From Corallococcus sp. NCRR (lineage in GTDB: Bacteria; Myxococcota; Myxococcia; Myxococcales; Myxococcaceae), in NCBI RefSeq assembly GCF_026965535.1, contig NZ_CP114039.1:2480001-2544000 (forward strand): a stretch of 64,000 bases of DNA, read 5' to 3'. Below, one piece after another: positions 28,689 to 58,182 of this stretch. Under the pieces are notes generated by a model that made no database searches, had not been told where the DNA came from, and saw only the letters and a program-made list of their open reading frames with translations. The translations under genes were made by a program, and so were the position numbers. Each line of letters opens with the position of its first letter. Within the stretch, counting starts at the first letter, position 1.

Positions 28689-29846
28689 ATGTCCGTATCT
28701 TTCGAAGTCGCGGCGGCCGAGGTCCGCGACGCGCTCACCGACGCGAGCCGGGGGCTGGTCGAGCGCGAGGCGATGGTGGAGCTGGTGGCGTTGTCGGCGG
28801 TGGCGGGCGAGCACCTGCTCGTGGTGGGCCCGCCGGGGACGGCGAAGAGTGAAGCCGTGCGCAGGACGGCGCGCGGCCTGGGCGGTTCGTACTTCGAGTA
28901 CCTGCTGGGGCGCTTCACGGAGCCGTCTGAAATCTTCGGGCCGGTGGACCTGCGCAAGCTGCGCGAGGGGCTGGTGGAGACGGAGACGGCGGGCATGTTG
29001 CCGGAGGCGGAGGTGGCCTTCCTGGACGAGGTGTTCCTGGGCTCCACCGCCATCCTCAACACGCTCTTGGGCCTGCTCAACGAGCGGACGTTCCGGCGGG
29101 GCCACACGCGCATGCAGTGTCCGCTGCGGGTGTGCGTGGGCGCGTCCAACGCGCTGCCGGAGGATGACGCGCTGGCCGCGTTCGCGGACCGGTTCCTCGC
29201 GCGCATCTTCGTGGAGCCGGTGCCGGATCCGCGGCTGGAGGAGCTGCTGGAGGGCGGCGCGTCGCTGTGGGTGGACGCGGCGCCGCGAGTGGCGTCGCTC
29301 CAGTCCCTGGACGTGGTGGCCCAGGCGGCGAGGCGCGCGGACCTGGGGCCGGTGAGGCCGCACCTGGCGCAGGCGCTGCGGACGCTGCGGGCGGCGGGCA
29401 TCGCGCTGTCGGACCGGCGCGCGGTGAAGGTGCAGCGGCTGGTGGCCGCCGCCTCGGCGCTGGCGGGGCGGACGACGCCGGGCGTGGCGGACCTGTGGCC
29501 GCTCGTCTACGCGGTGCCCACGAAGGAGGCGCAGGCGCTGGCGCGCGACGTGCTGCGTGACGTGCTGTCCGCGTCGGAGAACCTGGCGCTGCCGGCCGCG
29601 GCGCTGGAGGCGAGCGCGGGGCCGCTGGCCCGGGCCCAGCGCATCGCGCAGGCGGGGCAGGTGCTGCTGGAGTCGCGGCCCGTGGAGGGGGACGTTGACG
29701 CCGTGGCCGCGTGGCGGCTCAAGCTGGAGGGCGTGGCGCGCGAGATGGACGCGGGCTTCGCGCCGGAAGCGCTGCCGGAGACGCTGCGTGCGTTGCGCGG
29801 CGCGGTGGCGGCGGTGCTGGCGGAGGCGAGCACCCGCGCGGCGTGA
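28689..29846 (+). CDS. MoxR/RavA-type AAA+ ATPase of a bpX ternary system
   Basis: 385 residues from ATG 28689. The AAA+ core has Walker A GPPGTAKS (47-54), the MoxR-specific FTEPSEIFGPVDL segment, Walker B AEVAFLDEVFLG and an arginine-finger region (FADRFLARI). A helical C-terminal domain follows. MoxR ATPases act as chaperone-like motors and pair with vWA proteins; in E. coli RavA-ViaA. Here the likely partners are the vWA and bpX-type proteins at 31898-37061, 2 kb downstream. In the described MoxR-vWA-beta-propeller ternary systems the ATPase, the vWA protein and the propellers work together; the intervening four genes are not part of that set as known. Confidence 0.9.
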   Translation: MSVSFEVAAAEVRDALTDASRGLVEREAMVELVALSAVAGEHLLVVGPPGTAKSEAVRRTARGLGGSYFEYLLGRFTEPSEIFGPVDLRKLREGLVETETAGMLPEAEVAFLDEVFLGSTAILNTLLGLLNERTFRRGHTRMQCPLRVCVGASNALPEDDALAAFADRFLARIFVEPVPDPRLEELLEGGASLWVDAAPRVASLQSLDVVAQAARRADLGPVRPHLAQALRTLRAAGIALSDRRAVKVQRLVAAASALAGRTTPGVADLWPLVYAVPTKEAQALARDVLRDVLSASENLALPAAALEASAGPLARAQRIAQAGQVLLESRPVEGDVDAVAAWRLKLEGVAREMDAGFAPEALPETLRALRGAVAAVLAEASTRAA

Positions 29847-29977
29847 CATCGTCCGAAAGTCCTTCCTGAAATCCGATGGAATCCAATGGATGCGGGGCCC
29901 CGTATGGGTTGCTGCCAGCGGAACGGCGGCGCTGGGAGCGCCGTGCCGAAGGCATTTCATCCACGGGAGGACACTTC

Positions 29978-30577
29978 ATGCGAAACACCTTCGCGGCGCT
30001 GGCTCTTGCCTCGGCGGCCCTGCTGGCGGGCTGTGGCGACGATGATGACAACAACAACATGCCGGACGCGGGCACGGGCTACATGCCCACGGGCAAGGGC
30101 CCGGGCACGGCGCTGCGCTGCACGAGCAGCAGCAAGAACGCGTGGGACACGTTCGGCGCGAACGCGTTCGTCGCGGTGAACAAGTCCATCGTCGCGAAGA
30201 CGCTGGCGGAGCTGCAGGGCCCCAACGGCACGACGAACCTGGGCGAGTCCTTCACCCATATCGGTGACGCGAGCCAGGGCCCGGCGTATGCGGACGACGC
30301 GGCCACCTTCGAGGGCAAGCTGGCGGCGTTCCTCGTCTATGCCTACGGCGGTCCGGAGTCCATCCAGTACACGGATGGCAAGACGTACGCGGGCCCGCAG
30401 GACATGGCGGCGGCGCACCTGGGCATGGCCATCACCAACTCCCAGTACGACTACTTCATCGCGAACATGGTGGTGCCGGCGCTCACGGACAACGGCGTGA
30501 CGTCCGCGGACGTGTCCTCCTGCTTCGCTCCCATCGTGACGGACGCCGCGTTCAAGGCGTCCATCGTCGGCAAGTAG
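29978..30577 (+). CDS. Lipoprotein with truncated-haemoglobin-like domain
   Basis: 199 residues from ATG 29978 (GGGAGG seven bases upstream). A lipoprotein signal ends LLAGC with Cys19, followed by an Asp/Asn stretch. Residues about 53-199 follow the group-I truncated-haemoglobin pattern: AWDTFG start, LAAFLVYAYGGP, then QDMAAAHLGMAIT with proximal His147, and YFIANMVVPALTDNGV. An anchored, extracytoplasmic haemoglobin is unusual; it may bind or detoxify NO or oxygen at the envelope. The assignment is by pattern only and the distal residues were not checked. The next gene starts 20 bases later and is probably co-transcribed. Confidence 0.7.
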   Translation: MRNTFAALALASAALLAGCGDDDDNNNMPDAGTGYMPTGKGPGTALRCTSSSKNAWDTFGANAFVAVNKSIVAKTLAELQGPNGTTNLGESFTHIGDASQGPAYADDAATFEGKLAAFLVYAYGGPESIQYTDGKTYAGPQDMAAAHLGMAITNSQYDYFIANMVVPALTDNGVTSADVSSCFAPIVTDAAFKASIVGK

Positions 30578-30597
30578 TCACCGCTTCCGAGGGCTCC

Positions 30598-31353
30598 ATG
30601 ACTCGCATCGTTCTCCCGCGCGCCTTGCGCCGTGTGCTGGTCTCCACCGTGGGGGTGGGCGTGCTGTTCACGGCGGTGATGGGCTTTGCCCATACGCCGT
30701 CCGGCCGGCCGCTCCTGAAGTGGATGGGGATGTCCATGCCCCAGGCCGCGTCCGCGGCGGGGTGTCCGCTGGGGTACGACGTGAAGCAGAGCCCCGAGCA
30801 GAAGGAGGCCGCGAGGATGCGGTTCGCGGCCTCCTACCGGGGAGAGAGTCCCGCGCTGGCCCGGCCCGCGCTGGGGTTCGACCTGGAGCAGACGACGCGC
30901 GAGTCGCTGCTCGCGTGGGCCCAGGCGCACGGGGTGAAGTGCTCGGTGCCGCGCAGCCAGGGGGACCTGGATTGTGAAGAGGTGCCGGCGGCGCTGTTCC
31001 CGGGGTTGAATCGGCAGGCGGCCATCCGGAACCTGTGGGTGACGTTCGGCGCGGACGACCGGCTGGTGTCGCTGGTGGCCGTGAGCCGCGCGGTGGATCC
31101 GGTCCCCATCAGCGCGACGTTCCTCGCGGCGAACGCGACGCTCGCGACCCTGGCGGGGCCGCCCATGAAGCAGGACGGGGAGGGCAGCGTGGAGGAGCTG
31201 CGGCAGGGGCTCCTGCGGCAGGCGAGCGCGGAGTACCGCTTCCAGGACTTCTACGCGCTCACCCGCGTCACCAACATGGGGGACGGCTTCGTGCTAACGG
31301 AGGAGTACCGCGCCCTGCCGAAGGTCGCGGCGCGAGAGCTGCCGTCACGTTGA
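30598..31353 (+). CDS. Secreted or membrane-anchored protein of unknown function
   Basis: 251 residues from ATG 30598. An N-terminal hydrophobic segment (VLVSTVGVGVLFTAVMGFAH, about 13-32) is a signal or anchor. The soluble part has three Cys (about residues 57, 118 and 127), a helical region LARPALGFDLEQTTRESLLAW and a C-terminal region EYRFQDFYALTRVTNMGDGF. I do not recognise the family. It starts 20 bases after the haemoglobin-like lipoprotein and shares its strand, so a joint role at the envelope is likely. Its last nine bases overlap the end of the SRPBCC gene on the other strand. Confidence 0.75.
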   Translation: MTRIVLPRALRRVLVSTVGVGVLFTAVMGFAHTPSGRPLLKWMGMSMPQAASAAGCPLGYDVKQSPEQKEAARMRFAASYRGESPALARPALGFDLEQTTRESLLAWAQAHGVKCSVPRSQGDLDCEEVPAALFPGLNRQAAIRNLWVTFGADDRLVSLVAVSRAVDPVPISATFLAANATLATLAGPPMKQDGEGSVEELRQGLLRQASAEYRFQDFYALTRVTNMGDGFVLTEEYRALPKVAARELPSR

Positions 31354-31815
31354 GGCGGGGGACTCCACGTACTTCGCGAGCTTCTCCAGGGACATCCGCC
31401 AGCCGAGCTCGTTGTCTTCAGGCGGCACGCCGGGCGGGAGTCCTTCGTGCACGGCGTCGACGTCGGTGCCTCCGTCCGGTGCGTCGCTGAGCGTGAACGT
31501 GATGCGCATCTCGCCTTGGAGCGCGGGGTCGGAGGTCTCGAACCCGGTGGTTTCGATGACCTGTTCGTCCGGCACGAGCTTCACGAAGCGGCCGTGGTGC
31601 GTGTCCGTGTGCGCGGTCGTCTTTCCGGTCTGCGTGGGCGCGTCGTAGGTGAGGGAGATCCGGAACGCTCCGCCCTCGCGGGGTTCGAAGATGTGCACCT
31701 GGCTCGTCATGCCGTCGGGCACCATCCACGTCTGGACCGCCCGGGCGTCAATCAGGGCGCTGTAGACGCGCGAGCGGGGGGCCTTCACGTGGTGGCGGAT
31801 CCGGGTCGTGCTCAT
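31345..31815 (-). CDS. SRPBCC/AHSA1-family protein
   Basis: 156 residues from ATG 31815 (MSTTRIRHHVKAPRSRVYSALI). The opening strand-helix V-x-AP-x-x-V-Y-x-ALIDA, the WMVPDGMTSQVHIFEPREGG section, GRFVKLVPDEQVIET, EMRITFTL and the final helix GWRMSLEKLAKYV are the sequence of an AHSA1/CalC-type hydrophobic-pocket (START-like) fold. Members bind hydrophobic ligands or modulate Hsp90; the ligand is unknown here. It converges on the unknown secreted protein gene with a nine-base overlap of the 3' ends. Confidence 0.86.
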   Translation of the reverse strand: MSTTRIRHHVKAPRSRVYSALIDARAVQTWMVPDGMTSQVHIFEPREGGAFRISLTYDAPTQTGKTTAHTDTHHGRFVKLVPDEQVIETTGFETSDPALQGEMRITFTLSDAPDGGTDVDAVHEGLPPGVPPEDNELGWRMSLEKLAKYVESPAST

Positions 31816-31897
31816 GCTCGGGAGCATGGGCAGGGCTCCGGACGCTGTACAGCGAGATGCCCTGTTGGCGCTCACGCCCCTTCGTTAGAGTGCGGGG

Positions 31898-32374
31898 GTG
31901 CGCAACGGTGTGATGAGGCCGCCATCGGAGCCCGCTGTCGCGGGGCTTCCTGTTCGCTGGCGCCCCCGGGCCCTGCCCCTGGAGCCCGTGGCCGTGGCCG
32001 GTATCGGTCCCGTGGCGCTCGCGCTGGGACACCGCGCTTCACGGGCGGAGGACGCGGTGCTCGCATCGTGGAACGGTGTCGCGGGGTCGGACGTGCTCGT
32101 GCTGCTGGGGGGTGCCGCTTCGCTGCCCTGGGTGGATGGCGCGGTGTACCTGGGCCGTGACCCGCTGGCGCCCGCGCTGCTGCTGCCCTGCGCGCTGGAG
32201 CCGGAGGTGGCGCCTTCGCTGCTGGAGCGCGCGCTGCTCGCGGGGCAGGGCGATGCGCCGCTCGCGGTGCTGCCCGCATCCGGGATGCTCGTCTCCGTCG
32301 CGGCGGCCAGGTCTGTCGCGCGCGTCTCGCTGCGCGCGTGGCTGTCCGCCATGGCCCTGGAGGCCGCTTCGTGA
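31898..32374 (+). CDS. bpX5-like protein, first gene of the coupled bpX operon
   Basis: 158 residues from GTG 31898. The core from about 50 is ASWNGVAGSDVLVLLGG, SLPWVDGAVYLGRDP-APALLLP and EPEVAPSLLERALLA, a pattern I associate with the bpX5 domain of MoxR-vWA-beta-propeller ternary systems. The bpX number is from memory and should be treated as tentative. Its TGA stop (32372-32374) overlaps the GTG start of the next gene (32371), a translational-coupling arrangement. No signal peptide or membrane segment. Predicted role: accessory recognition module working with the MoxR ATPase and the vWA protein. Confidence 0.75.
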   Translation: MRNGVMRPPSEPAVAGLPVRWRPRALPLEPVAVAGIGPVALALGHRASRAEDAVLASWNGVAGSDVLVLLGGAASLPWVDGAVYLGRDPLAPALLLPCALEPEVAPSLLERALLAGQGDAPLAVLPASGMLVSVAAARSVARVSLRAWLSAMALEAAS

Positions 32375-34191
32375 CGACCGCGCTGCCTCCCGCGCTGCGC
32401 CCCTGGGCGGCGCAGCTGTCCCTGTTCCCGGAGGACCTGGCGCGGCACCTGGGGCCTCATGTGGCTCGGCTGTCCGCGGCGGTCGGGACACTGCGGCCTC
32501 GCGGTGAGGCTGAGGGCGGTGAGCCTCAAGGCTACGACGGGCTCTCCCGGCGGGGGCCTTTCGACCGGCTGCTCGTCAGTGAGTGGCTCTGGGCGCTGGA
32601 GGCGCCGGACGAGCTGGTGCGCCGCGCGGCGTTCGGTGAGCTGTCATTCCTCAAGCCTGCGTTCCGGCAGCCTCGGGGGGCTCGGCGCACCGTGGTGCTG
32701 CTGGACGTGGGGCCTGATCAACTGGGCCTGCCGCGCATCGCGCACCTCGCGTTGCTCGTGGTGCTCGCGCGCCGTGCGGAGGCCGTGGGCGCGGCGTTCA
32801 CCTGGGGCGCGCTCCAGACCGAGCCCGCGCACGTCACCCATGAGGGCCTGAGAGGCACGTCGCTGCTCGCGTGGCTCCACGCCCGCTCCACCACGCCCGC
32901 CTCCGCACGGCACCTGTCCGCGTGGCGCGAGGCCCTGGACCTCTCACGCGCACCCGAGGACGTGTGGCTCGTGGGCTCCTCGCGCCTGGGACGAATGGCG
33001 GGCGCGGAGGGGATGTCCCGCGTGGAGGTCTCCGAGCCGATGGAGCCCGGCGCGCACCGGCTCACCGTGGACGTGCGGCCCGCGGCGCGGGTGCCCCGCT
33101 CGGTGGTGCTGGAGCTGCCGCCTCCGGAGGATTGCGTGCGCCTGCTGCGCAATCCCATTGCTTCCCAGCCGCAGGCTTCCGGGTGGATGCCGCGCAAGGC
33201 CGGCCAGCGCATCGCGGGCTTCTCCTTCTGCGCGGATGGCACGCGCGTGCTGCTGTTCTCCGTGAACGGCGCCGTCGAGGCCCTGGCGGTGCCGCATTCT
33301 CCTCGTTCGACCGTGCCCAAGCCCCGGCGCGTCCAGGTGCCTCCGGGGCAGCGGGTGATCGCGGCGGGATGGCGCTCCTCGGGCGGCCTGCTCGTGCTCG
33401 CGCGCCAGGAGGACATCTACGTGATGCACGGGAATCTGCAGGTGCCCGTGGGCTTCCGGAAGGGGCGCTATCACTATCACGCGGCGGATGACTCCTTGCG
33501 GCCGGACCCCGCGCCGGGCGCGCTCCCGCTGACCCTCTTGAGCTGGAGCTGGGGAGGGCGGCGCGAGTATGAGCGCCTCTGGTTGAAGGACGGCAAGGGC
33601 CGGCTGTTCTCGCTGCCACATCCCTCCTCGAGGACCGAGACGCTCGAGGTGGAGGAGGAGGGCGTCTCCGCGATGGCGGAGGTGAAGGCGCGCCCGGTCT
33701 GGGTGCTGCGCCCCCAGGGGGAGGGAGGCGCGGTCATCTCGCGGTTGCGAGCGATGCGCGGGGGGCTGCCCAACCTCACCCCGCTCAACGCGCGCCACGG
33801 AGAGGCGTACTTCGGCCATTCGCCGTCGAAAGCGCATCCCGACGCGGGGCTGCTGGCGGTGCGTGACAGTGAGCTGGACTGGCGGCTGTTCCTGGACACC
33901 GGCGCGTCGGTCATCACCGTGCCAGAGACGCATCGCGTGGTGGGCGTGGTGCAGCCGCCTGCTCCGTCCCTGCCCGGACTGGTCGCGTTGCATCTGGATC
34001 AACGCACCTTCTCCTTCTTCTCGACCGAGGAGTCCCGGACGCTCGTGGTGGCCAGTGGCCCCGTGGTGCAGGCCGCGGCGAGCCACGGGCAGCCGGTGTT
34101 GGGATGGCTGACGCGGGCGGGGGAGTTCGTGTTGTGGGACCTGATGGCGCAGGCGGTGCTGTACCGCTCCGTCCCGGAGGCCACGCCGTGA
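32371..34191 (+). CDS. vWA-like plus beta-propeller protein of the bpX system
   Basis: 606 residues from GTG 32371, which overlaps the previous stop as GTGA. A lead region (about 1-115) with RRGPFDRLLVSEWLWALEAP precedes a vWA-like Rossmann core: RRTVVLLDVGPDQLGLPRIA, LALLVVLARRAEAVGAAFTWG and APEDVWLVGSSRLG. The metal site DxSxS of classical vWA domains is absent; the loop reads DVGPDQ. From about 270 to the end there are repeated 40-50-residue blade-like strands (GFSFCADGTRVLLFSVNG and similar), a beta-propeller. It stops in GTGA overlap with the next gene. Cytoplasmic; proposed adaptor between MoxR and the bpX6-like protein. Confidence 0.8.
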   Translation: MTTALPPALRPWAAQLSLFPEDLARHLGPHVARLSAAVGTLRPRGEAEGGEPQGYDGLSRRGPFDRLLVSEWLWALEAPDELVRRAAFGELSFLKPAFRQPRGARRTVVLLDVGPDQLGLPRIAHLALLVVLARRAEAVGAAFTWGALQTEPAHVTHEGLRGTSLLAWLHARSTTPASARHLSAWREALDLSRAPEDVWLVGSSRLGRMAGAEGMSRVEVSEPMEPGAHRLTVDVRPAARVPRSVVLELPPPEDCVRLLRNPIASQPQASGWMPRKAGQRIAGFSFCADGTRVLLFSVNGAVEALAVPHSPRSTVPKPRRVQVPPGQRVIAAGWRSSGGLLVLARQEDIYVMHGNLQVPVGFRKGRYHYHAADDSLRPDPAPGALPLTLLSWSWGGRREYERLWLKDGKGRLFSLPHPSSRTETLEVEEEGVSAMAEVKARPVWVLRPQGEGGAVISRLRAMRGGLPNLTPLNARHGEAYFGHSPSKAHPDAGLLAVRDSELDWRLFLDTGASVITVPETHRVVGVVQPPAPSLPGLVALHLDQRTFSFFSTEESRTLVVASGPVVQAAASHGQPVLGWLTRAGEFVLWDLMAQAVLYRSVPEATP

Positions 34192-37061
34192 GCACCGCGG
34201 CCGGAGTCGTGCGTCCTCGCGCCCAGGTGCACCGGGGCACCGTGGTGGCGGCGGCCTGGTGGTTCCATCCCGGGCTGCTGGGAGAGGCCGAGGCGCGCCG
34301 CCGCGTGCTGGCGGCCTGGAGGCCCGGCGCCACGGTCTGGGCGCTGGCGGGAGGCCACCTGCTGAAGCTGGCGGCACCGTGCAGGAGCGCGGTGGAGGCC
34401 GCGCCCGGACTGCCGCTGGTGCTGGATGCCGGAGTGCTCACCAGCGCGCCGCTGAGCCCGAAGGATCGCGAGCGATTGGAGCCACCCTTGGGCGCCGTCG
34501 TGCTGGTGCAGGAGGGCGTCGCTCGCGTGTACAAGCCCTGGGACCTGCGTCAGGTGGATCCGGGGACGTGGCTGGACGTCTCGGAGTGGCGACGCGTGCG
34601 GGTGAAGGGCTTGGGCGCGCCGCCTCCGCCTCTCAAGAGCGCGCTGGAGCCGCTGCCTCCGCCCACGCGCGCGGCGTTCGGACCGAAGGTGCCCGCGCTC
34701 GCGCCCGAAGCGGAGCGCATGCTGGCGCGCATGGCGGGGCAGGAGGTCCCGGTCGTGCGAGAGGGCTTCTTCGAGCGGCTGCGAAAGGCTTTCTCGCGGA
34801 GGCCCGGCGACGCAGTGCTGACCGTCCGTCGTGAAGGCGTGTTCGCGCGGCTGCGCCGGGCATTCCGTTCGCGGCCAGAAGGAGCGCGGGAGGGCGCGGT
34901 GACCGTGCGGCGTGAGGGCTTCTTCTCTCGCTTGCGCCGTTCCTTTCGCGCGGAGACGCAAAGCGCGCCGGGCACCGGGGCACGGGATGGTGGGGCCAAC
35001 CCAGGCACGCGTCCCGCCGAACCCGAAGGTCCGGACGCGCTCGAGCAGCTCAAGGAGTGGATGCTCCGGAACACGCTCCTGGGGCAGCTCGTGGGACAGC
35101 GCAAGGGCGACTACCTGCGCCACCTCTTCGAGCTCTTCGAACAGGGCAACCTCGACGAAGCCCTGCGCCACGCCATCCCCCTGGGCAAGGACATGGACGA
35201 GCGCGCGAAGCTCGCGCTCGGTGTGCCCGGCCCGCGTGAGAACCTGCGCATCCAACCCCAGGGCCGGAGCGGGGCCGCGCAGTCGTTCGGCGGAGGCCCC
35301 GCCGTGTTCGATGCGCTGCGGGAGCGCTACCGCGAGACCTTCCGCCGCCTGGAGCGCGAAGGCCGCATCGACGAGGCCGCCTTCGTCCTCGCGGAGCTGC
35401 TGGAGGCGACCGAGGAGGCCGTGTCCTTCCTGGAGCGCCACGGCCGCTTCCAGCTCGCGGCGGAGCTCGCGGAAGGGCGCGGCCTTCCGCCGGGCCTCGT
35501 GGTGCGCCAGTGGTTCCTCGCGAAGGACGTGGAGCGCGCGGTGGCCATCGCTCGGCGCTCGGGCGTGTTCGCGGACGCCGTGCTGCGCCTGGAGAAGACC
35601 CATCCCGCCGAAGCGCAGGCCCTGCGCCTCTTGTGGGCGGAGTCGCTCGCGGAGGCCGGGGACTGGTCGCGCGCGGTGGACGCCGTGTGGCCCGTGGCGT
35701 CCGCGCGCCACCTCGCGCGCGCCTGGGTGGAGCGGGGCATCCAGGCCGGAGGCACGGGCAGCGCGAAGCTCCTGGCGCGCCTCGCGCTCGAGTTCCCGGA
35801 CGGCTTCGGCGCCGCGCGCGAGGACATCCAGACCCTGCTGTCGGACGAAACGCCGGCGCGCGCTCCGGAGCGCCTGGCCTTCGCCACGGAGTTGCTGCGC
35901 GCGGACACCTCCGATGCCCGGAGCGCGCTCGTCATCCCCACCGTGCGCGCGCTGATGCGGGACGAGGCGGTGGAGGAGCTCCCCTCCAACGCGAAGCTCC
36001 TCCAGCAACTGCACGCGCTCAAGGACCCGGCGCTGGCCGCGCTGCGCGCGGACCTGCCGACGCCGCGGGCCTCCCAACGGCGCCCCTGGGCCGAAACGCA
36101 CGACCTGCCGCACGTGCGCGTGTGGATGGACCGCGGCCACGCGGGCGCCCACGCCGTGCATGACGCCGTGGTGCTGCCGGGCCAGCGCGTGCTGCTCGCG
36201 CTGGGCGAAGCGGGCGCGCGGCTGGTGGGCCCGGACGGACGCACGCTCGCGGGCTTCGACGTGCCGGCGTTCTCCCTGGTCCTGTCCTCGCAGGGAGACC
36301 GCGCGCTCGCGCTCGCGCGCCGGGGCGACCTGTGGCGCGTGTCGCGGCTGGACCTGGTGGAGCGCCGGGCCACGCGCTGGTGCGACCTGGAGCTGGACGC
36401 GTGGGCCCCCACCTACGACGGGGAGCGGTGGTTCACCGCCACGCGCGACACCGTGAGCATGGTGGACACGCTGGCCTCGGAGCCGCGCTCGCTGTGGCGC
36501 GTATCGGAGGTGGGCGGCACCGTGCTCCGGATGGCCGTGGACGCGAAGCACCTGTCGTTCCTCGTCCTGCACCTCACGCCGGAGCAGGGCTTCGAACGGC
36601 TGGAGCGCTGGGCCTACGAACTGGCGGGAGGCCCCGTGCTGCGCGGGCGCGCGGACATGAAGGACCTGCGGGGGCCGCCGGACGCGCTCTCGCTCACGCC
36701 CGACGGCGAGGCGATGGGCGTGCGCATCGCGGTCCCCGAAGGCGAGGAGCCCGGACCCTGGCCCTACTATGTGGCCCCCATCATCTCGCGGCGCTTCCAC
36801 CGCCCGGCCCGGCCGGACGCGGAGCGCGCGGGCGAGGTGCTCGCGCACTCCTGGCGCGTGACGCGCTTCCAGAAGGGCGAGCTGCACACGGCCGTCCTGC
36901 GCACCGTCGCCGACCACCCCCGCGCGACGGTGGAGTTCTCCGGTACCCCGCCTCAAGTCGTGCGGCTCACGGAGGACTGGTGCGCCGTCCACGACCTGCA
37001 CGGGCGCGTGGTGTGGCTGGACCTGCACTCCGGCGAGGTCCACCGCGTGCCGGTGGTGTGA
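34188..37061 (+). CDS. bpX6-like protein with helical repeats and C-terminal propeller
   Basis: 957 residues from GTG 34188, overlapping the previous TGA. Residues about 1-140 are the bpX6-like domain (RPRAQVHRGTVVAAAWW, LLGEAEARRRVLAAWRPGA, VYKPWDLRQVDPGTWLDV). Residues 189-258 hold three tandem Arg/Phe-rich amphipathic repeats. Then comes a hydrophilic segment and an alpha-solenoid (about 290-620) with TPR-like helices (AAFVLAELLEATEEAVSFLE, VVRQWFLAKDVERAVAIA). From about 650 to 957 a beta-propeller ends the protein (ARVLLALGEAGARLVGPDG-type strands). It is the last gene of the coupled trio and its stop abuts the stop of a convergent response regulator. Confidence 0.8.
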   Translation: MSTAAGVVRPRAQVHRGTVVAAAWWFHPGLLGEAEARRRVLAAWRPGATVWALAGGHLLKLAAPCRSAVEAAPGLPLVLDAGVLTSAPLSPKDRERLEPPLGAVVLVQEGVARVYKPWDLRQVDPGTWLDVSEWRRVRVKGLGAPPPPLKSALEPLPPPTRAAFGPKVPALAPEAERMLARMAGQEVPVVREGFFERLRKAFSRRPGDAVLTVRREGVFARLRRAFRSRPEGAREGAVTVRREGFFSRLRRSFRAETQSAPGTGARDGGANPGTRPAEPEGPDALEQLKEWMLRNTLLGQLVGQRKGDYLRHLFELFEQGNLDEALRHAIPLGKDMDERAKLALGVPGPRENLRIQPQGRSGAAQSFGGGPAVFDALRERYRETFRRLEREGRIDEAAFVLAELLEATEEAVSFLERHGRFQLAAELAEGRGLPPGLVVRQWFLAKDVERAVAIARRSGVFADAVLRLEKTHPAEAQALRLLWAESLAEAGDWSRAVDAVWPVASARHLARAWVERGIQAGGTGSAKLLARLALEFPDGFGAAREDIQTLLSDETPARAPERLAFATELLRADTSDARSALVIPTVRALMRDEAVEELPSNAKLLQQLHALKDPALAALRADLPTPRASQRRPWAETHDLPHVRVWMDRGHAGAHAVHDAVVLPGQRVLLALGEAGARLVGPDGRTLAGFDVPAFSLVLSSQGDRALALARRGDLWRVSRLDLVERRATRWCDLELDAWAPTYDGERWFTATRDTVSMVDTLASEPRSLWRVSEVGGTVLRMAVDAKHLSFLVLHLTPEQGFERLERWAYELAGGPVLRGRADMKDLRGPPDALSLTPDGEAMGVRIAVPEGEEPGPWPYYVAPIISRRFHRPARPDAERAGEVLAHSWRVTRFQKGELHTAVLRTVADHPRATVEFSGTPPQVVRLTEDWCAVHDLHGRVVWLDLHSGEVHRVPVV
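34752..34961 (+). repeat. Three tandem Arg/Phe amphipathic repeats inside the bpX6-like protein
   Basis: Repeat units begin at 34752, 34824 and 34905 (residues 189, 213, 240). The unit is VxREG[FV]FxRLRxxF followed by a basic, Pro/Gly-rich spacer: VVREGFFERLRKAFSRRP, VRREGVFARLRRAFRSRP and VRREGFFSRLRRSFRAE. Each forms a short amphipathic helix with Phe/Leu on one face and Arg on the other. Unit spacing is 24 and 27 residues. Confidence 0.85.
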
Positions 37062-37748
37062 TCAGGCGCAGCGCAGGTGGCTGGGCACGATGACGATGCT
37101 CGCCGTCAGCGCGCAGGCGGCGTCGTCCACCTCCAGCACCACGCGCACGCCCTCCACCGTCACCAGCAGCGACGGCTGCTCGCTGTGCAGCGCCATCAAC
37201 CACGATGACGCCAGGGGCAGCTCCGACGCGGCCAGCTCCGCGGCGCGCAGCAGGTGCACGCGCACCGCGTGGCGGACCGGGCCCGGCAGGGCGTGCAGCG
37301 CGTAGAGCGACTCGTCCGTCAGCCGCAGCGAGTACGGCACGCGCGGTGGTTCCTTCGGACGCTCGGGCAGCTCGCGCAGCCGTTCCGCCAGCGACCGCAC
37401 CAGCGCCTCCGGCTGCGACGGCTTCTGCAGGAAGCCCACCACGCCGTGCAGCGGCACGTCCGGCGTCCCACTCGCCGAGGACACCAGCATCACCGTCAGG
37501 TGCCGCAGCCTCGCGTCCGTGCGCAGCTGGCCGTACAGCTCCCATCCATCCACCCGGGGCATCACCAGGTCCAGGAGGATGAGGTCCGGGTGCTGCGCGC
37601 GCGGGCGATGACGCAGCCAGTCCAACGCCTCCGCGCCGTCCGCCACGGACGACACCAGGAAGCCCGCTTCACGCGCTGCGCGGCCCACACCCTCTCGCCA
37701 TGTCCGATCGTCCTCGACGAGCAGCAGGTGATGGACGCCCAGGGCCAT
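37062..37748 (-). CDS. Receiver-domain response regulator with an extra C-terminal domain
   Basis: 228 residues from ATG 37748 (a GTG at 37790 would add 14). Receiver domain 5-125: acidic triad E12 D13 D14, phosphoacceptor D60 in LILLDLVMP, Ser-Ser at the Thr position, and K in FLQKPSQPEAL. About 95 residues follow (from 135) with no recognised DNA-binding motif: PYSLRLTDESLYALHALPGP-type helices, then two strands VTVEGVRVVLEVDD. The output may be a protein interaction. Its stop touches the stop of the bpX6-like gene, and it is divergent from a small plus-strand gene. Confidence 0.83.
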   Translation of the reverse strand: MALGVHHLLLVEDDRTWREGVGRAAREAGFLVSSVADGAEALDWLRHRPRAQHPDLILLDLVMPRVDGWELYGQLRTDARLRHLTVMLVSSASGTPDVPLHGVVGFLQKPSQPEALVRSLAERLRELPERPKEPPRVPYSLRLTDESLYALHALPGPVRHAVRVHLLRAAELAASELPLASSWLMALHSEQPSLLVTVEGVRVVLEVDDAACALTASIVIVPSHLRCA

Positions 37749-37937: not shown

Positions 37938-38198
37938 ATGGCCTACCGCTGCCAATTGGAACCCCCGGTGGTGCGCGCGCTCACGGCGTGTACGCCCGCG
38001 GTGCGTGAGCGGCTCCAGGCGGAGCTGGGGGCGCTCGCCAGCCGGATGCCGGGCCTGCCGGTGCCTCCGTCCGGGCGGGAGGGAGCGACGGTGCTCGCCT
38101 GCGGCTTCCAGGTCCGCTACCGCGTGGAGCCGGGCGCGGGGCTCCTGCGGTTGACCGCCTTGTGGCCGCTGGGGCTGGTCCGTTCGCCTTCCTCCTGA
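37938..38198 (+). CDS. Small hypothetical protein
   Basis: 86 residues from ATG 37938. A helical start (PPVVRALTACTPAVRERLQAELGALASRMPG) is followed by three strands (ATVLACGFQVRYRVEPGAGLLRLTALWPL). The shape, helix then a short beta-hairpin sheet, is like the RelE/ParE-type toxin fold, but the conserved basic residues of those toxins are not evident and there is no antitoxin gene. The RBS is poor. An opposite-strand frame covers the same region; codon pattern favours this one. Confidence that it is a real gene is moderate. Confidence 0.5.
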   Translation: MAYRCQLEPPVVRALTACTPAVRERLQAELGALASRMPGLPVPPSGREGATVLACGFQVRYRVEPGAGLLRLTALWPLGLVRSPSS

Positions 38199-48727: not shown

Positions 48728-51229
48728 TCAGTCACGCCGAGCGTGGATGACGCGCAGCGTCTCCCGGCGCTCGAAGCGGTTGCCGGCGGCGTCGCGGGCG
48801 ACGAACACCAGCTCGTAGGAACCGGCGGGCGTGCCCTCCGGGATGACGAGCGAGGTGTTGAAGCGCAGGCCGTCCGTCGAGTCGAAGAGGTGCTGGTCCT
48901 CGCCGAAGAGGTCGCCGTACACGCTGACCTCCTGCGTGGCCTCCACCGCGTCCACGTCCAGCGTCAGCGTGTCACCGGGGGCGAGCTCCTTCTGGGAGAG
49001 GACGACGTCGAAGTCGTTGCCCTTCGAGTCCAGGCGGTAGCGCACCTCGCTGCGCTCCACGCGGCCGTCCGCCAGCTCCGCGATGATGAACACGGTGTAG
49101 TAGCCATCCGCGACACCCAGCGGCACGAGGAACCGGCCGCGCCACGAACGGGTGAGGGTGTCGAACGTGAGCGGCTTCACCAGGCCGAAGGGGAAGTAGG
49201 CGGTGACGCGGCGGGCGTTGCGCGGGGCGCGCACGGAGATGATGGGGTCGCCGGGGGGAATCTCCTCGCGGCTGAGGGCGCCCGCGACCATGCCGTCGGG
49301 GAGCTGCACGGGGACCGTCTCGCGGACCGTCTCGCCGTCGGGGTTCGTGCGGGCCACCTGCTCCACCGCGACGAAGGACGTGTAGCGGCTCATCAGGTGG
49401 TACTGGAGCGCGGTGTCGGTGATGCCCTGGACGACCTCGGGCGTCTCGCCACGGTAGCCCTCCACGGTGAGCTCCTCGATGCGCTGGCGGGCCCAGAGGC
49501 TCTTGAGCGAGTCGTGCTCCGGGGCGACTTCCGGGAAGTGCACGGGCACGTCGAAGTGGCGGACCTGGCCACGCACGCGGCCGGAGATGCGGAGGACGCC
49601 GTCACCGGTGCCGGTGAACTTGCCCACGAGGAACAGCGGCTGGCCGGCGAAGAGGTCCGGCACGGACTTCGGGTACACGTCGCTGACGGGCAGGCCGTCC
49701 GTGTCCACGTTGACGGAGGTGAGGACGGGGCCGCGCATGCGCTGCTCGAACTCGCGGGCGACGTCCTCCTCCGGGCGGTTGAGGTTGACGAGGGTGGAGG
49801 CGCCGCGGCCCAGCTCGCCCATCTTGGTGATGAGGTAGCGGTTGGTGCTGGAGCCCACGCCGGCGGAGAAGATGCGCGTCTCTTCACGCAGGTGCTCCTG
49901 GAGCGTGGAGAGGACCTGCTCGTCTCCGCCGATGAGGCCGTCCGTCATGAAGAGCACCATGCGCAGGCGGGCGGGGTCGTTCGGAGGGACCATGGCCTCC
50001 TGGGCGGCGATGCGCACGTCGGTGCCGCCACCGCCCCAGAAGTTGGCAACGTAGGGCAGGGCGTTCTGGATGTTCTCCGGCGTGGCGGGGACGGCGGTGG
50101 GCGCGAACTTGGTCACCTGCGTGTCGAAGTTGAGGACCTGGAAGGTGTCCTCGGGCATCAGGTGGTTGAGCACCTCCTTCGTGATGGCCTTGGACTTCTC
50201 GATGGCCAGGCCGGACTGCGAGCAGGACGTGTCGAGCACCATGTAGAGCTCGCGCGGGACGACTTCCCGCTGGGTGGGGGACAGCTGCGGGTTGAGCATC
50301 ACCAGGAAGTAGCCGTGGTCCGCGCCGGGCTCGCGGTGCATGAGGACGGCGGGGCGGATGAGGGCGTCGGCGACGACGTACTCCAGGACGAAGTCCTTGT
50401 TGGGGATGCGGTCATCGCGGCCCAGGCTGACGGTGGCGCGGGACTGGCCGTCGCGCTTCACGTCCACGCGGTGGGTGGTGGAGCGCAGCGAGTGGACCGG
50501 GAGGCCCGCGTCCAGGCGCACGGTGAGCTGGATGTCATGGCCGCTGCGCGTGTCGGTGAGGACCGGAGGCGTGATGCGGCTCGCGTCGGGGACGGTGGTG
50601 GTGTCGGGCTCCACGCCCTCGCCCTGGCGGGTGGGCAGCGGCGTGCCGCCGATGAAGCGGGGGGCGACGACCATGGGGAAGCTGAAGCGGTAGGTGCCGG
50701 CGTCGTAGGTGAGGCGCTCCACGTAGTGGATCCGCACGCGGATGGTTTCGCCGGGGAGGATGTTGGCGACGGACTGGGTGAAGATGTTGGGCCGCTCCTG
50801 GTCGAGCAGCGCGGCCGTCTTGCCCTCGGCCTTGGCGCGCTCGTAGGTGTCGCGGGCCTGCTCACGGGTCTGGATGACGCCGGTGATGACGCGCTCGCCG
50901 ATGTGCATCTCCATGCCATCCACGGCGGCCAGCTCCGGCAGCGGGAAGACGTAGAGCGCTTCGAGGGGAGCGGAGTAGGGGTTCTCGAACACCTGCGTCA
51001 CGGTGACGGAAGCGAGGAACCCGCTGACCTCCGCGTCCACCTGCGTCTGCTTGAGGCTGAAGGTGCGCGGCTCCGTGTCCGGGCACGCGGCGTCGGGCTG
51101 CGCACGGAAGCGGGCCACCAGGGTGCCCTGGGCGACGCCCGCGGTGGGCGAAGCGGCCGGGGGACAATCTTGAGCGGAGGCCGGGGCGGCCAGAAGACAG
51201 ACGAAGAGCGTGGCGAGCAGGACTCGCAT
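48728..51229 (-). CDS. Secreted VIT and vWA domain protein
   Basis: 833 residues from ATG 51229 (the frame is open upstream). A signal peptide MRVLLATLFVCLLAAPASAQ starts the protein. The VIT domain (about 50-175) holds FLASVTVTQVFENPYSAPLE, YVFPLPELAAVDGMEM, the Arg-containing REQARDTYERAKAEG helix and LPGETIRVRIHYVE. The vWA domain (about 325-500) has an intact MIDAS DTSCS (Asp333), a later Thr/Asp pair and FMTDG. The C-terminal 300 residues are strand-rich. These are the bacterial counterparts of inter-alpha-trypsin inhibitor heavy chains, usually surface or extracellular. Role unknown. Confidence 0.9.
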   Translation of the reverse strand: MRVLLATLFVCLLAAPASAQDCPPAASPTAGVAQGTLVARFRAQPDAACPDTEPRTFSLKQTQVDAEVSGFLASVTVTQVFENPYSAPLEALYVFPLPELAAVDGMEMHIGERVITGVIQTREQARDTYERAKAEGKTAALLDQERPNIFTQSVANILPGETIRVRIHYVERLTYDAGTYRFSFPMVVAPRFIGGTPLPTRQGEGVEPDTTTVPDASRITPPVLTDTRSGHDIQLTVRLDAGLPVHSLRSTTHRVDVKRDGQSRATVSLGRDDRIPNKDFVLEYVVADALIRPAVLMHREPGADHGYFLVMLNPQLSPTQREVVPRELYMVLDTSCSQSGLAIEKSKAITKEVLNHLMPEDTFQVLNFDTQVTKFAPTAVPATPENIQNALPYVANFWGGGGTDVRIAAQEAMVPPNDPARLRMVLFMTDGLIGGDEQVLSTLQEHLREETRIFSAGVGSSTNRYLITKMGELGRGASTLVNLNRPEEDVAREFEQRMRGPVLTSVNVDTDGLPVSDVYPKSVPDLFAGQPLFLVGKFTGTGDGVLRISGRVRGQVRHFDVPVHFPEVAPEHDSLKSLWARQRIEELTVEGYRGETPEVVQGITDTALQYHLMSRYTSFVAVEQVARTNPDGETVRETVPVQLPDGMVAGALSREEIPPGDPIISVRAPRNARRVTAYFPFGLVKPLTFDTLTRSWRGRFLVPLGVADGYYTVFIIAELADGRVERSEVRYRLDSKGNDFDVVLSQKELAPGDTLTLDVDAVEATQEVSVYGDLFGEDQHLFDSTDGLRFNTSLVIPEGTPAGSYELVFVARDAAGNRFERRETLRVIHARRD

Positions 51230-51308
51230 GGTCGGGAACCTTGGTTTCAGGGTGTGCCCGGGGACATTGCAGCCCCCGGGCCAACCCCGGTTCCCCTCTG
51301 AAAGGGCA

Positions 51309-51336
51309 GGCCGTGTGGCTGTGAAGCCACACGGCC
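51309..51336 (-). terminator. Terminator of the slipin gene
   Basis: GGCCGTGTGGCT (51309-51320) pairs perfectly with AGCCACACGGCC (51325-51336) around GTGA. It lies five bases beyond the slipin stop and on the minus strand is followed by TGCCCTTTCAG. Confidence 0.85.
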
Positions 51337-51341
51337 GTGTG

Positions 51342-52466
51342 TCAGCCGCCCTTGAGCTGGAGCGTGGGCACCGCGCCCTCACCGAGCACCAGGTGCACCT
51401 GACCCACCTTCGCGGCCAGGTCCTTGTACGCCTCCAGCTCCTTGAGGCGCACGAGCAGCGGGTTCTCCGCGAGCACCTTCGCCGTCTGTGCCATGGAGCG
51501 CGTGGCCGCCGTCTCCTCGCGCCGCAGGATGACGTTGGCCTCCGCCTCCTTCTGCGCCTGGATGACCCGGTTGAGCAGGTCCTTCATCTCCTTCGGCAGC
51601 ACCACGTCCTTGATGCCGAAGCGCAGCAGCTCCAGACCCACGCCCTCCGCCCCCGACTTCACCTGCGCGTACAGCTCCGTGGACACGGCCTCGCGCGCGG
51701 CCAGCAGCTCGTCCAGCGTGCGCGTGGACACGGCCTCGCGCGCAGCGAGCTGCATCGCCAGGTAGAGGATTTCATCCGGCGCCCGCGCCACCACCGCCAG
51801 CCGCCGCGCGTCCACCACCCGGTACGCCGCGGACAGGTTGAGCCGCAGCGTCACGCGGTCCCGGGTCATCACCTCCTGGCCGGTGACGTGGAGCAGCTTC
51901 TCGCGCAGGTCGATGACCGCGAACTGCACCTTGTTCGCGACCGTCCACGCCGCGTGACGGCCCGGCGGCAGCACGGCATCCAGCACGCCGTTCACGTACC
52001 GCAGCGCCACCGTGCCCTCCGTGGCCGTGGTCTCCACGTAGTCGCTGGCCGGAATCAGCGAGCGCACCTCGTCCCGCGGGGGCTCCGTCGCCACCCCGGA
52101 CACGTCCACGCGCTCCACCCGCACCGTGGGCGTCTCCGGCCGACCGGTACGACCGGGCAGCCGCTGCGCCGTCCACACCTGGTGCTGACCCCGCCCCAGC
52201 CACCGCACCGGCTGGCCGTGATGGAAGACCACCGCGCGCTCGTCCGCGCCCAGCTCCACCACCTGGAGGTCCTTCTCCGGCACCAACGCGAGCTTCGCTT
52301 CATCCAGCCGGGTGACGGGCGGCTCCAGCGGCACGCGCTCGAAGCGGACGGTCTGGAACGGACGCACCACCCAGTGCCGGCCCGGCCCCAGGTACTGCTC
52401 CGCCTTCCCGTTCACCACCACGAACAGCCGCTCGTTCTGCGCCACTTCCACCCGACCAATGCCCAT
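51342..52466 (-). CDS. SPFH/slipin-family protein with an extra N-terminal unit
   Basis: 374 residues from ATG 52466 (GAGGTGAC upstream). The SPFH core lies at about 150-330: TEGTVALRYVNGVLDAVLPPGRH, the band-7 segment VRLNLSAAYRVVDARRLAVV and TLDELLAAREAVSTELYAQV, then a coiled coil with QAQKEAEANVILRREETAATR. The N-terminal 120 residues repeat the first motif (NERLFVVVNGKAEQYLGPGRHW), so the usual single SPFH entry is doubled. There is no clear transmembrane segment. Slipins organise membrane domains; here the partner NfeD-type protease is absent. A terminator follows the gene. Confidence 0.86.
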   Translation of the reverse strand: MGIGRVEVAQNERLFVVVNGKAEQYLGPGRHWVVRPFQTVRFERVPLEPPVTRLDEAKLALVPEKDLQVVELGADERAVVFHHGQPVRWLGRGQHQVWTAQRLPGRTGRPETPTVRVERVDVSGVATEPPRDEVRSLIPASDYVETTATEGTVALRYVNGVLDAVLPPGRHAAWTVANKVQFAVIDLREKLLHVTGQEVMTRDRVTLRLNLSAAYRVVDARRLAVVARAPDEILYLAMQLAAREAVSTRTLDELLAAREAVSTELYAQVKSGAEGVGLELLRFGIKDVVLPKEMKDLLNRVIQAQKEAEANVILRREETAATRSMAQTAKVLAENPLLVRLKELEAYKDLAAKVGQVHLVLGEGAVPTLQLKGG

Positions 52467-52735
52467 GACACGTCACCTCGACGACAAGAAAAGGAGTGCA
52501 GCCCGGCTGCTGGGAAAAGGACCCCGCCGCCCCACGGGCGCGTCACGCGAACAGGCCGTCCGGATCCGCGTTCAGCCTCCCGGGCTTCCGCACCGGATAC
52601 CGGTCACGGACGGCGACCGGAGCGCTTCCGCGAACAGCACGGAAGCCTCCAGAGGCCCTGGCGACCAGCCAGTGTGCGGAGTGGGGAGGAGGACGCGGTG
52701 GACTCGCGTTGGCACCAGCGGAAACGACGGGGTCC

Positions 52736-52807
52736 CGATGAACGAAGGAATCGAACCTTCAAATGCGAGAGTGACCGTCTCGTGCTCTACCGTTGAGCTA
52801 GTTCAGG
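52736..52807 (-). tRNA. tRNA-like sequence, anticodon position GTC (Asp-type), abnormal
   Basis: On the minus strand from 52807 a tRNA shape folds: D stem GCTC/GAGC with loop AACGGTA, anticodon stem CGAGA/TCTCG, a 7-base loop CGGTCAC, T stem GAAGG/CCTTC with TTCGATT. The anticodon position is GTC, which would read Asp. Two faults: position 33 is G, not the nearly invariant T, and the acceptor pairs only five of seven bases (CCTGAAC with GTTCATC). No CCA is encoded. It may be a pseudogene or a genuine divergent tRNA. Confidence 0.5.
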
Positions 52808-53114
52808 TTGTGCCCAGCCAAGGGCCTCAATGCGCGCCTCACGGTATGGCGTGCGACCGGTGCGGCCTTCGATATGAAAGGAACCTCGGGCGGTGATGGC
52901 CGTGAGGAACGTCCGAACCCCATGCCTGGGCCCAAAGAGCCACCGCATGGAGCCGGACGCCTCGGGACAACCCCGTGCGCCCCCCTGAAGCTGCCGACGG
53001 GGCCACTGGACGCGGCCGTGCGGAAATCCTGACGCCCGCATGCGGATTCGATGACGAAGCGAATCCCCGGGGACCGATAGTTTCAACCGCGTCGGGTGGA
53101 CCCGGAGGCGGAGC
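52808..53114. other. Intergenic stretch with one hairpin and no gene
   Basis: Short frames cross this 307-base region on both strands but none has a usable RBS or a recognisable product. GGATTCG (53044-53050) pairs perfectly with CGAATCC (53060-53066) around a nine-base loop, 49 bases ahead of the next gene; it could be a transcript end or a leader hairpin. Otherwise nothing is visible. Confidence 0.4.
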
Positions 53115-53375
53115 GTGAAGCGCTGGAGCTTGGTGGTGGGGATGCTGGGGATGACGATGTCATCCGCGTGCGGACGGCACCGACTCGAATCATGCACCAC
53201 CGATTCGCAGTGCCGAGGAGACCTGACCTGCTTCCAATGGGAGGACCGTCCCAGCTGTCAGTACGTCTGCGACCTGTCCAAGCGCGGAACCGCAGAAGAC
53301 ACATGTCCTGAAGGTTTTGTCTGCGGAGAGGCCAAGGGAACAAACGCAGGCGTGTGCATGGTCACCCATACCTGA
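53115..53375 (+). CDS. Small Cys-rich lipoprotein
   Basis: 86 residues from GTG 53115 (GGAGGCGGAGC directly upstream). The signal MKRWSLVVGMLGMTMSSAC holds a lipobox with Cys19. The mature protein has eight more Cys in a regular pattern (SCTTDSQCRGDLTC, SCQYVCD, TCPEGFVCGE, VCMV), which resembles the repeated Cys-rich lipoprotein motif common in myxobacteria and suggests four disulfides. A surface or periplasmic role; function unknown. Confidence 0.78.
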   Translation: MKRWSLVVGMLGMTMSSACGRHRLESCTTDSQCRGDLTCFQWEDRPSCQYVCDLSKRGTAEDTCPEGFVCGEAKGTNAGVCMVTHT

Positions 53376-53386
53376 CGCCGCCTCGC

Positions 53387-54052
53387 TCAGCCGCGCGTCA
53401 CGTCCCACCAGCCGAACCACATCACGCGCTCCTCGGCCATCAGCTCCCAGCCCGGCCCGTGCGCGTAGTCGCGGACCCGCAGGCCCGCGGCCTCCACCGC
53501 GCGCGCCGTCTCCTCCGCGCTGTACAGGTGCAGCGTCACGTCCGTGTCCGCCGTGCGCACCCGCCGCGTGGACGCTTCGTGCGCCTCCAGCCCGGCCCTG
53601 CGCTCCAGCACCGTGAACAACATCCGGCCGCCCGGCTTCAGCACCCGGCCCAGGTGCTCCATCACGCGCAGCAGGTTGTCACAGAAGTCCAGGCATCCAA
53701 TCACCAGCACGACATCGAACGTGCCCAGGTCGTCCGGCACCGGATCCATGTAGCTGTGCACGCGCCACATTCCTGACGGCCTGGAGCGCTTCGCCAGCTC
53801 CAGCATCTCCGGCGCCAGGTCCAGGCCCACCACGTCCACGGACGCGTCCAGCCCGCGCGTGTGCAGCGCCGGGCCACAGCCCACGTCCAGCACGCGCATC
53901 TCCGGCTTCACCACGTCCGCGAGGAAGCGCTCCACCCGGTCGCCGTAGCGGTGCAGCGCGGGGTAGAGCACCTCGTAGGCGGAGGCGATCTCCCCGTACA
54001 CCCGCGCGACGGCGGCCTCTTCCCTCCTGCCGCCGTCGACCTCGTCCGCCAT
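53387..54052 (-). CDS. Class I SAM-dependent methyltransferase
   Basis: 221 residues from ATG 54052. SAM-binding motif I is MRVLDVGCGPALHTRGLD, followed by motif II VDVVGLDLAPEML with the acidic ribose-binding Asp, motif IV FDVVLVIGCLDFCDNL and the helix-strand GRVLKPGGRMLFTVL. The substrate is not apparent; the acceptor domain is short. It lies 36 bases downstream of the glycogen debranching gene on the same strand, and could be transcribed with it. Confidence 0.88.
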   Translation of the reverse strand: MADEVDGGRREEAAVARVYGEIASAYEVLYPALHRYGDRVERFLADVVKPEMRVLDVGCGPALHTRGLDASVDVVGLDLAPEMLELAKRSRPSGMWRVHSYMDPVPDDLGTFDVVLVIGCLDFCDNLLRVMEHLGRVLKPGGRMLFTVLERRAGLEAHEASTRRVRTADTDVTLHLYSAEETARAVEAAGLRVRDYAHGPGWELMAEERVMWFGWWDVTRG

Positions 54053-54088
54053 TGTCGTGCGCTCCTGCTCAACCGCGCGGGCACCGTA

Positions 54089-56233
<2,145 letters not shown>

Positions 56234-56370
56234 GCGTCTCACTCGATTCCGTGGGGAAACTGCCGACGGAATGTGGGTGCGACTGCGCCATGCGGCAAGA
56301 CGTCCGGGTGCGCTGACTGTCCACCGGGCAGCGCTTTGGCAAGTGGTCGGTGCTGAAACGAATGGCCCCG

Positions 56371-57639: not shown

Positions 57640-57820
57640 GCGTTGGACGCTTTCGGTGGTGGGTGCGCGCTGCCTGGACCTCTTTGGATAAGCCCCCGGC
57701 CGCTCCCTGTCATCCAGGAGAAGCACATTCCGGAGGCCGGGGGGCATGCGGGCGGGGGGGCCCCTGGTGGCACAAAGCCCCCGCCCACCCCAACCTCAGA
57801 GGGGAAAGGAGGCGTTCGTC

Positions 57821-58033
57821 ATGAGCAAGAACAAGAAAGACGTGCTGCACATCCCCTTGGAGGACCTGCCTCCAGCGCGCGAAGCCGGGACGGAAGAGGA
57901 ACGGCGTGAGCGCCACGTGCCGTCCACCTTCGACCCGGGGGGCGGTCCCGGCAATGGCCCGGGGGACAACGGGAGCCCGCGCATCATCGAACCGGTGGGC
58001 CAGCCGTACTCACCCGGCGTCAAGGTGACCTGA
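57821..58033 (+). CDS. Small acidic, Pro/Gly-rich protein
   Basis: 70 residues from ATG 57821 with a strong RBS (AAAGGAGG). It begins MSKNKKDVLHIPLEDLPPAR, continues with Glu/Arg pairs and ends in a Gly/Pro segment (FDPGGGPGNGPGDN, then RIIEPVGQPYSPG). It has no signal or membrane helix and looks intrinsically disordered. The RBS and the strong terminator after it support a genuine gene. Function unknown. Confidence 0.72.
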   Translation: MSKNKKDVLHIPLEDLPPAREAGTEEERRERHVPSTFDPGGGPGNGPGDNGSPRIIEPVGQPYSPGVKVT

Positions 58034-58057
58034 TCATCCAGGTCCCGCTGTCTTCAT

Positions 58058-58098
58058 GACCCCGCTGACGCCCTTGAGCGTCGGCGGGGTCTTGTCGT
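58058..58098 (+). terminator. Terminator of the small acidic protein gene
   Basis: GACCCCGCTGACGC (58058-58071) pairs with GCGTCGGCGGGGTC (58078-58091), one G-T pair, six-base loop, then TTGTCGTT. It begins 25 bases after the stop at 58033. Confidence 0.82.
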
Positions 58099-58128
58099 TC
58101 GCGTGAAGCGCCGGCCGCGGAAACGGCG

Positions 58129-58161: not shown

Positions 58162-58182
58162 TGCGTTCATCCCAGGGAGGGA

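Follow-up and report, generated by a model that had tools for sequence, protein, structure and literature searches.

The linker of the bpX6 protein analysed here carries tandem 13-residue amphipathic units of the pattern RREGFFARLRRAF, an array newly found in this work. The four-protein system to which bpX6 belongs would, on balance, probably form a membrane-tethered AAA+ remodelling complex in which the unit array acts as an avidity-tunable inner-membrane tether and three genes inserted in the locus are passengers. The system lies in the window, a stretch of 64,000 nucleotides (positions 2480001-2544000) of a 9.79 Mb Corallococcus genome, and is composed of a bpMoxR ATPase, bpX5, a "vWA"/propeller protein and bpX6, as identified by Pfam matches and reading frames. 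The last three genes (the trio) are joined by two GTGA overlaps, both present and in frame, as an earlier sequence-only reading of the window had described.

28689..29846, + strand: bpMoxR AAA+ ATPase, 385 aa (PF20030, 278 bits)
31898..32374, + strand: bpX5 (PF19921, 84 bits; probable start ATG 31913)
32371..34191, + strand: vWA-like domain plus seven-bladed propeller, 606 aa (AF2 pLDDT 89.8)
32704..32736, + strand: DxGPxQxGxPR motif, at the place of the vWA MIDAS DxSxS
34188..37061, + strand: bpX6, with bpX6 domain, helix-array linker, helical solenoid and propeller, 957 aa (PF19922, 115 bits)

Families and architecture of the four proteins

The sequence-only reading had named a MoxR ATPase, a bpX5-like protein and a 957-residue bpX6-like protein, and all three identifications held, the matches scoring far over the Pfam cut-offs (27 bits for PF20030). 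Profile searches of the genome gave a single strong bpMoxR match (280 bits; runner-up 78 bits) and one bpX6; this MoxR was not among the matches of an AAA_3 search of the genome. Judged from its sequence, the locus belongs to the MoxR-vWA-beta-propeller ternary systems described by Kaur, Burroughs, Iyer and Aravind in 2020 (subsystem 4; PMC7159879, section 22), the family already proposed for it, to which the PF20030, PF19921 and PF19922 matches and the architecture correspond. These systems were called enigmatic because no conventional effector was seen (PMC7159879). The locus has in common with them a bpMoxR with GXXXTAKS, a propeller-bearing partner, the gene neighbourhood, and a third component with a variable region, helical repeats and a propeller, which here is bpX6. 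In contrast, the variable region here is made up of amphipathic helices, with no transmembrane segment, insertions part MoxR from the trio, and the modelled propeller has seven blades instead of the approximately four given in PMC7159879.

The P-loop of MoxR, GPPGTAKS, occupies residues 47-54, and GXXXTAKS, the P-loop variant named by Kaur et al. (PMC7159879), was present in 107 of 108 MoxR sequences of at least 300 aa, some rows being duplicates. The MoxR orthologues of relatives were 60-98% identical to that of the window, and the match of the latter to the NCBIfam RavA model was weak (146 bits, cut-off 681). A MoxR without the TAKS P-loop was seen in a Massilia relative (L152). In most of the relatives shown the N-terminus of bpX5 is MRPP or MRAPP, and for this reason ATG 31913 is its likely start.

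Only a part of the earlier vWA/propeller description of the 606-aa protein stood. Its AF2 model has an alpha/beta region to about residue 260 and then 28 strands that make up seven blades; the propeller (residues 275-603) gave VIA matches to propellers with Z of 12-14, and the Pfam cut-off of one propeller family, and no other, was passed. In the model the beta-propeller is C-terminal to the vWA region, an arrangement that Kaur et al. call strict (PMC7159879). The vWA domain was not recovered by sequence, with no Pfam vWA match in 64 aligned sequences; of the profile searches that the earlier reading had suggested, those for bpX5 and bpX6 matched and that for vWA did not. An hhalign comparison with 25 vWA domains gave a probability of about 0 (positive control, 99.7), the set being 25 of 30 domains gathered via PF13519, of which five failed the DxSxS/length filter. 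Of 119 sequences, some of them duplicate rows, 108 have the exact DxGPxQxGxPR motif, which follows strand 106-111 in the model; a subset of these vWA domains is without the aspartates according to PMC7159879. The Foldseek and VIA lists for this protein were filled by propellers and thus barely probed the N-terminal domain; the label vWA-like is based on the published analysis and the strand-helix order.

The AF2 model of bpX6 (pLDDT 85.3) has helices at residues 284-622 and strands at 643-954, with propeller matches, and the linker, residues 186-300, connects the bpX6 domain to the helical solenoid. A 1014-codon open frame antisense to bpX6 (33999-37043, - strand) is probably a high-GC shadow frame.

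The amphipathic unit array in the bpX6 linker

A bpX6 search of the phylum found 63 of 195 genomes with one copy each, and the 62 loci besides the window were fetched and mapped. They are referred to as crown (the window and L039-L089; genus codes g1, g3, g5, g6, g7, g8 and g19) and deep (L090-L100, eight with the family code of the window and three with another). A scan of named genomes added further loci, 80 of 131 confirmed relatives being kept; the wide loci (L125-L180) take their class from database entry names, and ten of their rows repeat L075, L090-L094, L096 or L098-L100. An entry labelled Comamonas sp. KCTC 72670 (L120) carries a myxobacterial locus, and its label is probably wrong. 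The linker counts include five loci with bpX6 cut by a contig end (L074, L082, L095, L098 and L100) and leave out L129 and L132, whose linkers have fewer than 30 residues.

34755..34793, + strand: unit 1, VREGFFERLRKAF (PSSM 34.2; model helix 194-202)
34827..34865, + strand: unit 2, RREGVFARLRRAF (PSSM 33.4; model helix 218-226)
34908..34946, + strand: unit 3, RREGFFSRLRRSF (PSSM 29.6; model helix 246-254)

AF2 placed an isolated helix on each of the three units of the window, within a low-confidence stretch. When 226 open frames of at least 150 aa (73,170 residues) of the window were scanned with a PSSM that includes these units, they scored 29.6-34.2 and the next site 1.3, 28 bits lower. With a PSSM trained and tested on one set, each of the 16 Corallococcus had 2-6 units per linker, and at least one unit was found in 48 of 52 crown rows (32 of the 36 crown rows outside Corallococcus), the unit-less ones being L044, L056, L075 and L088. 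A PSSM from the other crown rows detected 60 units in the linkers of the 16 Corallococcus, whereas 200 shuffles gave 0.035 on average and 1 at most; unit 3 of the window fell under the threshold when the PSSM was trained on other crown Myxococcaceae. The hydrophobic moment of 160 units was 0.63 versus 0.34 for permuted letters, a pattern that the PSSM itself favours, and their mean net charge was +1.6. A stricter helix count (moment 0.75, charge +2) gave at most one helix per linker and none in the window. Parsimony on a tree of 56 proteins gave a minimum of 25 changes in unit copy number; the tree carries a long-branch warning and leaves out L043, L074, L082, L095, L096, L098 and L100. Elsewhere in the genome, the best other match to the array had E = 0.10 and three loci inspected were unlike the units, while the comparison of the linker with solved structures gave one chance match, to a designed protein (E = 1). 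The word 'amphipathic' is absent from the main text of PMC7159879.

Of 24 rows from Beta- and Gammaproteobacteria, 22 have a predicted transmembrane segment in the same linker slot; such a segment was predicted in 0 of 52 crown, 0 of 11 deep and 3 of the 28 remaining wide rows. No 19-residue stretch with a mean hydropathy of at least 1.6 occurred in any of the 52 crown linkers, in a scan that covered the linker. This equivalence of slot is the main reason for reading the array as a membrane tether. Kaur et al. also place the systems near the membrane, via a spanning segment in the third component that is not called strict in the passage concerned (PMC7159879). The deep Myxococcota rows, nearly all without a unit or a transmembrane segment, are the weak point of the tether reading: a unit was found in 1 of 11, and short basic aromatic stretches were noticed by eye.

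According to the mechanism that we favour, the MoxR ring would be an ATP motor working on the vWA-like/propeller protein, bpX5 a small adaptor, and bpX6 a scaffold whose propeller and helical solenoid would hold a partner or client. Through its linker, bpX6 would anchor the complex to the inner membrane. In crown Myxococcaceae this linker would be flexible and carry short basic amphipathic helices in varying number, the copy number setting the membrane avidity; in Beta- and Gammaproteobacteria the anchoring would be through transmembrane helices in the slot of the crown units. At the inner membrane, the ring would pull on or re-shape the putative client held by the vWA-like/propeller protein and bpX6.

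The nearest tested analogue known to us of a MoxR pair at the inner membrane is RavA-ViaA of E. coli, a MoxR-type ATPase and a vWA protein that act there through phospholipids (PMC9489729). It differs from the present system in having two proteins and lipid-binding sites within RavA and ViaA themselves, and the abstract of PMC9489729 has no mention of propellers or bpX proteins. FtsY has an autonomous membrane-binding amphipathic helix (Parlitz 2007, as cited in PMC8082313 and PMC6158289), and in the FtsY of this genome one KTQGFMARLNGLF stands directly before the N domain. The units have in common with this targeting helix a stretch of the G-F-x-A-R-L-x-x-x-F type directly in front of a folded domain, although the latter is a single copy in an unrelated protein. 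With the unit PSSM the FtsY site scored -1.7, a value inside the background tail, so that the likeness is one of pattern and not of homology, and FtsY-type lipid binding by the units is putative, by pattern only.

Possible conflict role, peptide binding and membrane sensing

The system was present in 16 of 16 Corallococcus and in 60 of 96 family genomes, and was missing from 7 of the 27 genomes of the related genus g19. Kaur et al. predicted a conflict role (PMC7159879), and we regard as possible, if tentative, an anti-phage or other conflict system in which infection would be sensed and the ATPase would free an effector activity of the third component, a physiological role that is compatible with the tether. 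The absences in g19 are in line with it, as is the faster evolution of vWA and bpX6 (dN/dS 0.46 and 0.45) relative to MoxR (0.17) and four flanking genes (0.19-0.37). However, all these ratios are under 1, an effector domain was not found, and a PADLOC search with seven proteins had no match reaching E 0.001, MoxR alone giving a weak one, to mad8, at E 0.03. Moreover, the system is kept by all the Corallococcus, mostly with the same downstream genes: a response regulator in 14 and a histidine kinase in 13 of the 15 fetched loci. For the loci that lack them (L082; L079 for the kinase), the fetched stretch is short. The system is stably inherited and quickly diverging, which neither proves nor excludes a conflict role. 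Downstream of bpX6, the 37062-37748 frame (- strand) has a response regulator receiver domain and, by eye, a RelE/ParE-like C-terminus, with a small, similar frame following near 37940-38198 (+ strand). No experiment on a bpX system was found by title or abstract in the open-access literature, where bpMoxR appeared in no match listed and the bpX6 mentions were unrelated by title.

Less likely than the tether, but possible, is the idea that the units are protein-binding peptides, ligands of the MoxR ring, the vWA-like groove or clients, whose copy number would tune protein avidity. MIDAS-type vWA domains do bind extended peptides (Kaur et al., PMC7159879), but the metal site of the domain is replaced here. 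Peptides would suit the model, in which the units form short separate helices within a stretch of low confidence, much like multivalent peptide arrays, and also the scarcity of both units and transmembrane segments in the deep relatives, whereas the basic, aromatic and amphipathic pattern and the equivalence of the slot to transmembrane segments in Beta- and Gammaproteobacteria speak for the membrane. It seems unlikely that the array is an evolvable multivalent membrane sensor, its copy number setting how much membrane charge or damage, as from phage entry or rival toxins, is needed for bpX6 binding and MoxR-vWA engagement; if it were, species would differ in this threshold through gain and loss of 13-residue units.

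Gene order and the inserted genes

The trio is kept in order and tightly coupled in relatives. All 15 Corallococcus and all 11 deep loci have the vWA-bpX6 NTGA overlap, as do 35 of 36 crown loci outside Corallococcus and 31 of 54 wide loci; the bpX5-vWA overlap is found in 13 of 15 Corallococcus, 32 of 36 other crown, 7 of 11 deep and 34 of 54 wide loci. This conservation fits a fixed complex, of putative stoichiometry. The order MoxR-bpX5-vWA-bpX6 extends from Pseudomonas and Massilia through Acidobacteria and Armatimonadota (L132); in a Massilia relative (L155) two tandem frames match the vWA/propeller profile.

The separation of MoxR from the trio, in contrast, was mostly not kept. A 4-nt overlap joins MoxR and bpX5 in all nine deep loci that show both genes, and the gap between them is at most 150 nt in 48 of 51 wide loci and never exceeds 600 nt there, with distances taken up to where the bpX5 match begins and some negative values coming from long open frames. 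Among crown loci outside Corallococcus the gap is at most 300 nt in 29 of 35 and more than 400 nt in 6, start codons in fetched loci being rough and gaps such as 107, 308 and 521 artefacts. It is longer than 400 nt in the window and in 14 of the 15 other Corallococcus loci; two seemingly coupled Corallococcus cases span inserts and are chance frames. The fetched stretch of the 36th crown locus outside Corallococcus (L043) is without MoxR despite ample upstream sequence; the MoxR orthologue (81%) is found on that contig, 12 kb upstream and in the same orientation. These approximately 12 kb (G101:C10, about 49100-61130) are the largest insert seen. As the same MoxR directly precedes the trio in most relatives, the gap of the window is derived, and originally the four genes most likely formed a single coupled unit, the gene orders compared suggesting that the split came later. 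A different MoxR beside other copies of the trio, named in advance as counter-evidence, was seen in none of the relatives' loci.

It had been proposed that the split lets the MoxR ring serve more than one partner. We find this improbable: a separate promoter-like block before the trio could allow separate dosage, but coupling of MoxR and trio was seen in each of the nine deep loci that show both and in 35 of 51 wide ones, orthologous MoxR adjoins the trio in most relatives, and the genome has one strong bpMoxR and one bpX6.

29978..30577, + strand: lipoprotein, globin-like below threshold (Glb; PF01152, 19.2 bits, cut-off 21)
30598..31353, + strand: inserted protein (Sec), family-less in profile searches, hydrophobic N-terminus
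31345..31875, - strand: AHSA1/SRPBCC protein (PF08327, 74 bits), conserved start near 31827
31885..31892, + strand: promoter-like block TTAGAGTG, upstream of the trio, pattern [CT]TAGA[CG]TG

Instead of the four-gene insertion reported earlier, three genes were counted between MoxR and the trio. The SRPBCC assignment of one was confirmed, on the minus strand. That of a haemoglobin-like lipoprotein was borne out halfway, the Bac_globin score lying below the cut-off (17.9-19.7 bits in five orthologues scanned) and a lipobox-like LLAGC being visible by eye; an exported, lipid-anchored globin would be unusual. The Sec product gave nothing at E up to 1 in Pfam, NCBIfam and PADLOC. Seven of the 16 Corallococcus have an intact Glb here, and Glb, Sec and SRPBCC occur together in six, the window included. 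This insert typifies the clade of the window, Glb-Sec being decayed in L070 and absent from L076 and L083. Six Corallococcus (L053, L067, L071, L079, L082 and L086) have a DUF2381-like plus small lipoprotein-like pair, an assignment tested with Pfam in L053; L079 has Glb-Sec as well and the other five are without Glb. One Corallococcus has no insert. The state of the insert changed at least five times on the tree of 56 proteins.

Insertions at this junction are lineage-specific, reach 12 kb and differ in contents, as judged by Pfam for ten gap proteins and by eye for similar contents elsewhere. They include an extra EVE/NOV_C gene between SRPBCC and bpX5 in L085 (9029-10105), whose make-up presumably recalls defence genes, a TsiV type VI immunity protein in L039 (8749-9657) with look-alikes in L040, L045 and L047, and a Tox-PAAR-like, ketoacyl-synthase-like and DUF2169 set in L060 (5386-8752). 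The MoxR-bpX5 junction of Myxococcaceae is possibly an insertion hotspot for type VI toxin/immunity genes. The three genes of the window look like recent passengers in a permissive junction; that they are functional partners of the ATPase complex, as their joint occurrence in six Corallococcus might suggest, is highly improbable given the opposite strand of SRPBCC, the decay or absence of Glb-Sec in three loci of the clade, and the replacement of the insert by the DUF2381-like pair or its absence in others.

All Corallococcus regions but one (15 of 16) contain the [CT]TAGA[CG]TG block, compared with 3 of the 36 remaining crown regions and none of the 11 deep ones; the rows share descent, and single-base shuffles gave an expectation of 0.006 per Corallococcus region. 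It sits 13-105 nt from the bpX5 start used, and the sequence above it differs among Corallococcus; a sigma-70 scan of 29700-32000 gave 0 sites. The block resembles a -10 element, so the trio would have its own promoter, and this putative promoter may let the trio be expressed without read-through from MoxR.

Given their conserved order, the four genes are to be treated as one unit and the genes between them as optional. The different chemistry in the transmembrane slot across a group of genera, together with the fast-changing copy number of the units, makes the putative binding of this system to the membrane an idea that would be cheap to test.
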